A stretch of DNA of 64,000 bases from NCBI RefSeq assembly GCF_947495735.1, contig NZ_CANMAA010000002.1, positions 310,001-374,000 on the forward strand, read 5' to 3'. The notes below the pieces were generated by a model. It was not told the origin of the DNA. It ran no database searches and worked only from the letters and a program-made list of their open reading frames with translations. Shown here one piece after another: positions 24,498-28,606 of this stretch (position 1 is its first letter; each line of letters starts with the position of its first letter). Position numbers and translations under genes: made by a program. This stretch comes from an uncultured Pseudokineococcus sp. (GTDB lineage Bacteria; Actinomycetota; Actinomycetes; Actinomycetales; Quadrisphaeraceae).

Positions 24498-26260
<1,763 letters not shown>

Positions 26261-26264
<4 letters not shown>

Positions 26265-26491
26265 CGGTCGCACCAGCGGCTCAGCCGGAAGCGCTGGTGC
26301 ACGGCCTGGCGGCTGACGCCGAGGGCCGTCGCGATCGAGGCCCAGCTCGCCGAGGCGACCCGCGCCCGGCGCACCTGGACCTCCTCCAGCCGCTCGAGCT
26401 CCCGCCGCGCCGCGGCGAGGGCCTCCAGCGCGGCCAGCGGGTCGTCCCCACCGGCCTGTCCCACCAGCGTCTGCAACCGGCCCACCTCCAT
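26261..26491 (-). CDS. Small helix-turn-helix regulator of the exporter operon
   Basis: 76-aa protein. The N-terminal half is a charged helix (ALAAARRELERLEEVQVRRAR) suited to a dimerising coiled coil, and the C-terminal half is a helix-turn-helix, SWASIATALGVSRQAVHQRF, of a type common in tiny actinobacterial regulators. It lacks an evident ligand-binding domain. The ATG at 26491 has no Shine-Dalgarno, but a TTGACG-17-TACCTT promoter puts transcription start on its first base. Two GTCAA-type palindromes cover this promoter. Autoregulation and control of the coupled exporter gene is the natural inference. An alternative GTG at 26513 would lie inside the promoter. Confidence 0.8.
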
Positions 26492-26494
26492 CCC

Positions 26495-26537
26495 GTCAAG
26501 GTAGATTGACACCTCGGAGTCGTCAAGCGCCCTTGAC
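26495..26537 (-). promoter_or_regulatory. Leaderless promoter overlain by two palindromic operators
   Basis: On the minus strand, -35 TTGACG (26526-26521), 17-nt spacer, -10 TACCTT (26503-26498), and the A of the HTH ATG (26491) at the expected start. Operator 1, GTCAAG-N4-CTTGAC (26522-26537), is a perfect palindrome across the -35. Operator 2, GTCAA-N6-TTGAC (26495-26510), covers the -10. Their centres are 27 bp apart. Confidence 0.75.
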
Positions 26538-26698: not shown

Positions 26699-28606
26699 AT
26701 GCGGGCTCTGCCCGAGCCGGACTTCCGGCAGGTCTTCGACGAGACCCCGACGCCGCTGCTGCTGCTGACGCCGGACCTCGTGATCGTGCGGGCCAACCGC
26801 GCCCGCCTGGAGGCCACGGCGACGACGCTGGAGGGCACCGTCGGCCGCGGCCTCTTCGAGGTCTTCCCGCTGAACCCCGACGACCCCGCCGCCGACGGCC
26901 TGGTCAACCTCCGGGACTCCCTCGCCCAGGCCCGTGACACGCGCCGCCCGCACACGATGGCGATCCAGAGGTACGACATCCGGATGCCCGACGGCACCTA
27001 CGTCGAGCGCTTCTGGAGCCCGCGCAACGTCCCGGTCCTCGACGAGCGCGGCGAGGTGGTCCTGCTGCTGCACCGCTCCGACGACATCACCGAGTACGTC
27101 CGGGGCCGGGAGGCCGTCCGCCTGTCCGCCGAGGCGACCGACCGCCTGCGCGAGCGCGCCGAGCAGGTGGAGGCCGACCTGTTCTCCCGCACCCGCGAGC
27201 TCGAGCAGCTGGTCGCCGACCTGGGACGGGCGACCGCGCGCGCCGAGCTGCTGGCGCGCGTGACGAGCGAGCTGGCCGCCACCGAGGACGCCGAGGACGC
27301 CGTCACGCGGCTGTCCCGGCTCGTGGTGCCCGTCCTCGCCGACTGGTGCGTGGTCAGCCTCGTCGCCGACGACCGGCGCCAGCGCACCGCCCGGTCCCTG
27401 CGCGTCGTCACCGGGTGGCACGCGGACCCCACCGCGCGCGACCTCGTGGCCGAGTACGCCGCCCTCCGGCAGGCGGCGCTCCGCGCCGACCCGCTCCTGG
27501 AGGGCGCGCTCACGAGCGACCGCCCGCAGGTCCGGGGCGAGCGGGCGCTGGAGCACCTGGTGTCCGTGCTGGCCCCCGGGCGGGCGCGAGACCTGGTCAC
27601 CGAGCTGGACCCGGAGTCCCTGGTCGTGCTGCCCCTGCGCGCGCGGGGCCGGACGCTGGGGGTCCTGTCGCTGGTCAGCGGCGCCGCCCGGGCTCCCGTC
27701 AGCCCCGAGGAGCTCGAGACCGCGACCGACATCGCCGGCCGGGTGGGGCTGGCCCTCGACAACGCCCGGCTGAGCCGCCAGCAGCGCGAGCTCGCCGAGG
27801 CGCTGCAGCGCTCCCTGCTCAGCGCGCCCGCCCAGCCCGACCACACCCAGGTCGTCGTGCGCTACACGCCGGCCGCGGAGTCCGCCCAGGTCGGCGGGGA
27901 CTGGTACGACGCCTTCCTGCAGGCGAGCGGCGCGATGATCCTCACCATCGGCGACGTGCTGGGCCACAACACCGAGGCGGCGGCGTCCATGGGCCAGGTC
28001 CGCTCGCTGCTGCGCGGCATCGCCGTCGCCACCGGTGCCGGGCCCGCGGAGATCCTCGCCGGCGTCGACCAGGCCATGGTGACCCTGCAGGTGGGCACGA
28101 CGGCCACCGCCGTCGTCGCCCGGCTCGAGCAGACCCCCGACGAGTCCCGGCGCGCGGTCACCCGGCTGCGCTGGTCCAACGCCGGGCACCCGCCGCCCGT
28201 GCTCCTCTCCCCCGACGGGTCGGTCCGCCCCCTTTCCGCCGAGCACTCCGAGCTGCTCCTCGGCGTCGTGCCCAGCAGCGCCCGCAGGGACCACGAGGTC
28301 GTGCTCGAGGAGGGCTCGACCGTCCTCCTCTACACCGACGGCCTGGTGGAGCGGCGCGGGGAGTCGCTCCAGCGCGGGCTCGACCGCCTGGAGAGCGCGC
28401 TGCGCGACGTGGCGAGGCTCTCGCCGGACCTCGACGACCTCTGCGACGGGGTGCTCGAGCGCATGCTGCTCGAGCGCCCCGAGGACGACGTCGCGCTGGT
28501 CGCGGTGCGGCTGCACCGCCAGGACCGGCTGCGCCCGGCCGAGGCCGGGCCGACGCGGGTGCCCGACGACGTCCCGGGCGCCCCGGCGGTCGTCGAGCGC
28601 GGGTAG
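26699..28606 (+). CDS. PAS-GAF-SpoIIE (PP2C) serine phosphatase
   Basis: Cytoplasmic 635-aa signalling phosphatase. Residues about 8-135 are a PAS-like sensor (FRQVFDETPTPLLLLTPDLVIVRAN). A short coiled coil follows, then a GAF-like domain (about 190-370). The C-terminal SpoIIE/RsbU domain (about 385-615) has RYTPAAESAQVGGDWYDA, LTIGDVLGHN, WSNAGHPPPVLL, LLYTDGLVERR and EDDVALVAVR with the metal-binding Asp/Gly motifs intact. Such proteins dephosphorylate anti-sigma-factor antagonists. No partner kinase or antagonist gene is adjacent. ATG at 26699 has GAGAGG close upstream. Confidence 0.88.
   Translation: MRALPEPDFRQVFDETPTPLLLLTPDLVIVRANRARLEATATTLEGTVGRGLFEVFPLNPDDPAADGLVNLRDSLAQARDTRRPHTMAIQRYDIRMPDGTYVERFWSPRNVPVLDERGEVVLLLHRSDDITEYVRGREAVRLSAEATDRLRERAEQVEADLFSRTRELEQLVADLGRATARAELLARVTSELAATEDAEDAVTRLSRLVVPVLADWCVVSLVADDRRQRTARSLRVVTGWHADPTARDLVAEYAALRQAALRADPLLEGALTSDRPQVRGERALEHLVSVLAPGRARDLVTELDPESLVVLPLRARGRTLGVLSLVSGAARAPVSPEELETATDIAGRVGLALDNARLSRQQRELAEALQRSLLSAPAQPDHTQVVVRYTPAAESAQVGGDWYDAFLQASGAMILTIGDVLGHNTEAAASMGQVRSLLRGIAVATGAGPAEILAGVDQAMVTLQVGTTATAVVARLEQTPDESRRAVTRLRWSNAGHPPPVLLSPDGSVRPLSAEHSELLLGVVPSSARRDHEVVLEEGSTVLLYTDGLVERRGESLQRGLDRLESALRDVARLSPDLDDLCDGVLERMLLERPEDDVALVAVRLHRQDRLRPAEAGPTRVPDDVPGAPAVVERG

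Follow-up and report, generated by a model that had tools for sequence, protein, structure and literature searches.

A small helix-turn-helix protein of the ClpC2/RelI family and a conserved, promoter-embedded operator pair upstream of an ABC exporter gene in an uncultured Pseudokineococcus sp.

The stretch of 64,000 nucleotides analysed here (the window), which originates from an uncultured Pseudokineococcus sp., harbours a gene for a helix-turn-helix (HTH) protein of only 76 amino acids, immediately followed by the gene of an ABC half-exporter and preceded by two palindromes. Such a layout raises the question of how, and in response to what, this compact unit might be controlled. In a preliminary description two palindromes, the first of them called perfect, were said to cover the -35 and -10 elements of a leaderless promoter, and both of them are indeed exact at these positions (Table 1). 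Read along the minus strand, the order is GTCAAGGGCGCTTGAC, 11 nt, GTCAATCTACCTTGAC, GGG and ATG, the start-to-start distance between the operators being 27 bp. The predicted -35 and -10 elements are separated by a spacer of 17 nt and, since the ATG lies 7 nt past the -10 element, a leaderless transcript is plausible, although a stricter consensus scan reported no promoter at this locus. The GTG start of the exporter gene at 26264 shares 4 nt (GTGA) with the stop of the HTH gene. On the other side, the HTH gene is flanked by a large divergent PAS-GAF-SpoIIE gene, which also adjoins the closest relative locus (L031); tblastn did not flag it at the other 99 loci, though the upstream flank is short at some of these.

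Table 1. Features of the HTH-exporter locus, with positions counted from the first letter of the window
Feature	Position	Strand	Remarks
Operator 1 (upstream), GTCAAG-N4-CTTGAC	26522..26537	-	exact palindrome, GTCAAGGGCGCTTGAC; the predicted -35 element is its right arm
Operator 2 (gene-proximal), GTCAA-N6-TTGAC	26495..26510	-	exact palindrome, GTCAATCTACCTTGAC; predicted -10 element within core
Predicted -35 element, TTGACG	26521..26526	-	from sequence; right arm of operator 1
Predicted -10 element, TACCTT	26498..26503	-	from sequence; within operator 2
76-aa HTH protein (P0001), putative autorepressor	26261..26491	-	ATG at 26491 is the predicted transcription start
Predicted recognition helix, residues 61-69	26285..26311	-	AlphaFold2 model and covariation with operator
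ABC half-exporter, 588 aa, GTG start, BmrA/ABCB type	24498..26264	-	Pfam and comparison with solved chains
PAS-GAF-SpoIIE gene, divergent from the HTH gene	26699-28606	+	

The occurrence of the operator pair at the HTH gene is far beyond chance. With up to one mismatch allowed, the window contains two matches to the palindrome versus a mean of 0.18 in shuffled sequences, and two were reached in one of 100 shuffles. Throughout the organism's own 4.2-Mb genome GTCAA-N6-TTGAC is found four times and the backwards control pattern not once; two of the exact sites are those of the window locus and one each lies upstream of two paralogous HTH genes, i.e. all four precede genes of the HTH family. A looser pair pattern added one place to this list, before a third HTH paralogue. 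Among 59 relatives, 30 of the 66 exact sites are followed by an HTH match at a distance of 2-102 nt (about 0.006 expected) and 36 are not, and each of the 11 site pairs lying 25-31 bp apart precedes such a match. Counted from the gene side, an exact site accompanies 19 of 52 HTH matches (E up to 0.001).

A protein-pattern search yielded 379 relatives, the best 80 of which were kept as named homologue loci. The region upstream of homologues had been pointed out earlier as the place to look for the palindrome pair, and among these best 80 of 379 relatives 79 loci have kept a pair of sites in which no fewer than 8 of the 10 arm letters match, the exception (L075) having one; at least one exact site is present in all 80 and two exact sites in 73. 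The search was also started from the DNA side, where exact operator pairs were detected in 124 of 394 genomes and the backwards control in none. The follow-up covered 51 pairs in 50 loci (30 given by the tool and 20 picked by hand from the list), and 45 of these pairs directly precede an HTH-family gene. As judged from sequence comparison, the regulatory architecture is real and strongly conserved.

The six exceptions comprise two alpha/beta-hydrolase genes (L174, L185) and four loci (L159, L163, L175, L176) where GTCAAG-N4-CTTGAC pairs stand at or near small Xre-like genes, their type having been judged by eye. At the latter four, a similar palindrome is apparently used by another type of regulator, and one might suppose that GTCAAG-N4-CTTGAC belongs to an Xre-type regulator in the window too, its match with the HTH gene being partly coincidental. 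This explanation is very improbable, as no Xre gene adjoins the window site and, in the related loci L003-L005, a pair with different inner letters precedes the same gene, a point limited by the closest relative (L002/L031), in which the gene-proximal site alone is exact. At L174 and L185 the hydrolase gene begins 3-4 nt behind the pair and has no HTH gene of the family next to it; it is possible that these genes are trans targets of a family HTH protein. The reading frame of the L174 hydrolase soon breaks off.

The position of the operators relative to promoter elements was surveyed at 138 HTH loci, 37 of which had been selected by the pair pattern itself. According to the rule used, the operator pair is present at 126 loci and missing at 12, including the closest relative L031. 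The start-to-start distance is 27-29 bp in 120 of the 126 paired loci and 26-30 bp in 121, and in 94 of these 121 the best -10 candidate is TANNNT. This hexamer follows the TTGACN of operator 1 by 17 or 18 nt in 92 of the 121 loci, and it lies wholly within operator 2 in 96 and within operator 1 in 12. Operator 2 and the start codon are 0-6 nt apart in 99 loci, the other 22 having longer leaders with a Shine-Dalgarno-like motif in 17 cases. Three consecutive operators were observed ahead of the HTH gene at four loci, spaced by steps of 27-28 bp in L063, L073 and L188, the third operator of L157 following at ~21 bp.

To which family the 76-aa protein belongs is answered by sequence comparison, which places it in the ClpC2/RelI HTH family. 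The window protein stays below the cut-off of every Pfam and NCBIfam model and PADLOC returned nothing for it at E 0.01; a scan of 40 family members at E 0.01 did pick up generic HTH models, among them HTH_23 in 29 proteins. The best solved relative is RelI (PDB 9SDC), with an E value of 2.5e-10 and of 7.9e-9 in a second search. The truncated ClpC2 crystal fragment 8ADA matches with an E value of only 0.0064, all 20 full ClpC2-type proteins give a best domain of 35-38 bits against the family profile, and profile-profile comparison of the ClpC2 N-terminus with the family reached a probability of 98.0. A mobile-element origin was rejected, since neither the plasmid nor the phage collection contains a match to the window protein at E 0.001.

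The AlphaFold2 model of the protein (mean pLDDT 88.1) consists of helices 2-13, 18-45, 50-57 and 61-69. When the model was compared with the PDB by Foldseek, the best match (E 1.5, Fis-like) was not significant, nor was the best fold-search Z of 5.8, again to Fis (rmsd 5.2, 72 aligned residues); both 8ADA and 9SDC are absent among the fold-search matches listed. The assignment of the recognition helix was compared with the operators in a covariation set of 161 HTH genes, in which the four helix letters from Q62 were read against the operator and in which relatedness inflates agreement. The letters QTVH go with GTCAG arms in 4/4 genes, QAVH or QAAH with GTCAA-N6 in 130 of 133 (on inspection, the other three have a GCAAC-type left arm) and QAAQ with GTCAA-N7 in 17 of 20 (N6 in two, none found in one), four further genes having other or unread helix letters. 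In this set, operator letters and spacing follow the letters of the recognition helix, a correspondence for part of which relatedness can account.

RelI (Rv2664) is, like the window protein, a small stand-alone HTH protein, and its rank as best solved relative would be expected if the locus were a toxin-antitoxin-like module, with the HTH protein a relative of RelI-type antitoxins and the exporter a mere neighbour. According to the accessible text of Han et al. (2026, PMC13284704), RelI dimerises via its second helix and neutralises a toxin, after which it is encoded as the second gene of the pair; no upstream inverted repeats are reported by the authors, no strong evidence of DNA binding by RelI was found, and an exporter is not mentioned in that text, which does note a partial HTH similarity between RelI and ClpC2. 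In the window, however, no small toxin gene was called between the exporter and the divergent gene, these two being the immediate neighbours of the HTH gene, and an exporter follows the HTH gene in 61 of the best 80 of 379 relatives. Together with the gene order and the missing repeats of the RelI pair, this makes a toxin-antitoxin-like module barely credible.

The second named member of the family, ClpC2 (Rv2667 type), offers the closer parallel in promoter layout. In the part of Taylor et al. (2023, PMC10030653) that was accessible, mycobacterial ClpC2 is described as an autorepressor that binds, as a dimer, CGTCAAC-n5-GTTGACG sites over the -35 and -10 elements of a leaderless promoter, and its autorepression is relieved by cyclomarin A, the response to the ligand being mediated by an attached domain. 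Both systems share an HTH of the same family, N-terminal in ClpC2, and two palindromes with GTCAA/TTGAC arms over the -35 and -10 elements, as well as a leaderless start, which is published for ClpC2 and predicted for the window. On the other hand, the ClpC2 operators (GTCAAC-N5-GTTGAC) have one central base more than the N6 sites of the window, and the effector is the antibiotic-absorbing sponge itself in ClpC2 whereas the effector gene of the window encodes an exporter. ClpC2 also contains a fused, drug-binding Clp_N domain; Pfam revealed neither a Clp_N nor any other ligand domain in the 76 residues, in keeping with the first impression of the locus, and the window protein is therefore not a ClpC2 orthologue.

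Twenty ClpC2-type genes (L192-L211) were fetched and 17 of their upstream regions read. All 17 regions contain one or more N7-type sites and 13 of them contain two, the gene starts 2-4 nt after the position of the second site, and a Clp_N domain lies behind the HTH in both of the two proteins tested. In the accessible text, Taylor et al. assign the DNA contact of ClpC2 to the C-terminal Clp_N domain, a double arginine mutant of which bound DNA more weakly (PMC10030653). The published crystal fragment 8ADA comprises residues 4-72 (PMC10030653), and its end point directly precedes the recognition helix in the ClpC2-type genes. The family relationship suggests that the N-terminal HTH of ClpC2 may have the main DNA-binding role, which, if right, would be a direct reason to re-examine where ClpC2 contacts DNA.

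The window exporter combines ABC_membrane and ABC_tran domains in one chain, both above the Pfam cut-off. Among the 60 best solved chains listed, BmrA is the best bacterial one, aligned over exporter residues 39-589 with E 1.9e-99, a relationship that connects the protein with BmrA-type multidrug ABC half-exporters; a substrate of this kind is putative here. In the best 80 of 379 relatives, the next gene on the same strand encodes an exporter in 61 (including L065, where the match spans 51 residues only), a Clp_N protein in 12 and another product in seven, three of which (L088, L093, L107) are beta-lactamase-fold proteins. At the 44 HTH-adjacent loci found from the DNA side, the partner is a Clp_N gene in 24, an exporter in 12, a beta-lactamase-fold gene in four (L177-L180) and none or unclear in four. 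The HTH gene overlaps the beta-lactamase-fold gene by 4 nt at all seven of these loci, and a match to PF00144 was obtained for 7/7 partners tested.

The coupling of HTH and exporter genes, proposed in the preliminary description and marked in the window by the 4-nt overlap, thus finds strong support in its conservation, but the term compact export-control module does not reach far enough, as Clp_N and beta-lactamase-fold genes are found behind this cassette as well and close relatives of the exporter occur without it. Of 11 upstream regions of close exporters, nine carry neither an HTH gene nor an exact operator; they belong to the same-genus genomes G003 (exporter 86% identical) and G002 (71%) and to seven further genomes, and one of them (L218) has a 9/10-letter site with a 5-base centre. 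The HTH gene was seen only in G468, and an exact operator without it only in G464. The census is incomplete, since the best 11 candidates per genome were scored. An obligate coupling was rejected on account of these nine regions; the coupling is optional, and the exporter does not need the regulator.

How the unit might work can now be proposed. While sites, geometry, conservation, family and gene order are established at the level of sequence, repression of the window operon, its inducer and the substrate of the exporter are what we infer, by analogy with clpC2, the only case for which autorepression, dimer binding and relief by a drug have been published. In our view it is probable that a dimer of the HTH protein represses its own leaderless HTH-exporter operon via both palindromes, and that stress or a natural product relieves this repression. 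A dimer would bind each palindrome and the filled pair, with the -35 element in operator 1 and the -10 element in operator 2, would exclude RNA polymerase; since the polymerase should be blocked wherever the operators are occupied, autorepression is the most likely mode of control of the operon. The leaderless transcript would encode the HTH protein and the BmrA-like exporter via their 4-nt overlap, the repressor's own level would set basal expression and, once occupancy is lost, repressor and exporter would rise together. Relief would probably be brought about by a toxic natural product or by stress that lowers the amount of active repressor, the candidate routes being recognition of the signal by the HTH protein itself, its recognition by a partner protein, and plain loss of repressor. 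The autoregulation through two operators put forward in the preliminary description is strongly supported by their conservation, though the conserved operators might serve the control of the HTH gene alone. Counting against the proposed mechanism are the optional coupling, the 12 loci without a pair, the assignment of DNA contact in ClpC2 to a domain missing from the window protein, the report that RelI gave no strong evidence of DNA binding, and the non-significant fold search.

It is possible, if rather doubtful, that the circuit is purely homeostatic, i.e. that negative feedback holds the level of HTH protein and exporter while sensing nothing, and that less synthesis or more turnover relieves it. 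The lack of a visible ligand domain would fit such a circuit, as would the restriction of exact sites in the own genome to HTH-family genes and the short distance of 0-6 nt between operator 2 and the start codon at 99 of 121 loci. One must bear in mind, however, that in the relative ClpC2 an attached domain mediates the response to a ligand, as stated in the accessible text of PMC10030653, and that an inducible role is suggested by several partner genes, which are of the defence type.

Besides autorepression relieved at the HTH protein itself, a split version of ClpC2 can be envisaged, in which the drug would be captured by a Clp_N-domain protein or by the exporter, and HTH occupancy would change as a result. 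HTH and Clp_N are fused in ClpC2 and occur as adjacent genes in many genomes, 46 of the 143 HTH rows of a tree being labelled Clp_N, and in the own genome two HTH genes stand beside Clp_N genes, the Clp_N match at L139 being barely above the cut-off. Moreover, in G464 the exporter gene (L219/L224) is preceded by a single GTCAACATATGTTGAC, and an HTH gene with an operator pair and a Clp_N gene are found on another contig (L223), a layout which hints, as one case, that one regulon can comprise both exporter and sponge. We nevertheless find a split ClpC2 unlikely: the window has no adjacent Clp_N gene, the exporter site of G464 is absent in its relatives G515 (exporter 87% identical) and G535, and the operators of two paralogues have other letters, L139 showing GTCAG arms and L142 a GCAAC-type left arm. 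These differences argue against cross-talk and look as if the paralogues were mutually insulated.

The own-genome paralogues L137, L138, L139 and L142 have partners of the DUF3024 or Clp_N type, two of the HTH genes standing beside DUF3024-type genes (Pfam was run on one, L137). In the tree of 143 HTH rows, which is based on few columns, the Clp_N-linked rows form one group and exporter linkage needs eight changes, three of them forced by supported branches; L044 is counted there as Clp_N-linked by its sequence, with which Pfam agrees, and had been labelled "other" in the earlier assignment of partners.

With respect to novelty, the suggestion that the module is possibly undescribed stands in part. 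The double-operator architecture is already known, because it has been published for clpC2 of the same HTH family (PMC10030653, accessible text), and no description of a stand-alone, exporter-coupled HTH form was found in the one open-access library searched; this form is what looks new. More broadly, and with somewhat less than an even chance of being right, the HTH gene and its promoter-embedded operator pair could be an interchangeable antibiotic-defence cassette across Actinomycetes. Its targets would include the Clp_N sponge (fused or adjacent), the multidrug exporter, the beta-lactamase-fold hydrolase, DUF3024 proteins and, in trans, alpha/beta hydrolases, and it would follow that ClpC2 recognises DNA by its N-terminal HTH and not mainly by the C-terminal domain. 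If so, one recognisable DNA signature would mark a class of inducible actinomycete defence genes, and the window exporter would be a candidate for protecting the cell from natural products like those to which ClpC2 responds.

A further arrangement of sites was observed away from any family HTH match, at G013:C1:1184044-1184269, where GTCAAGCCCGCTTGAC is repeated six times at 42-bp steps.
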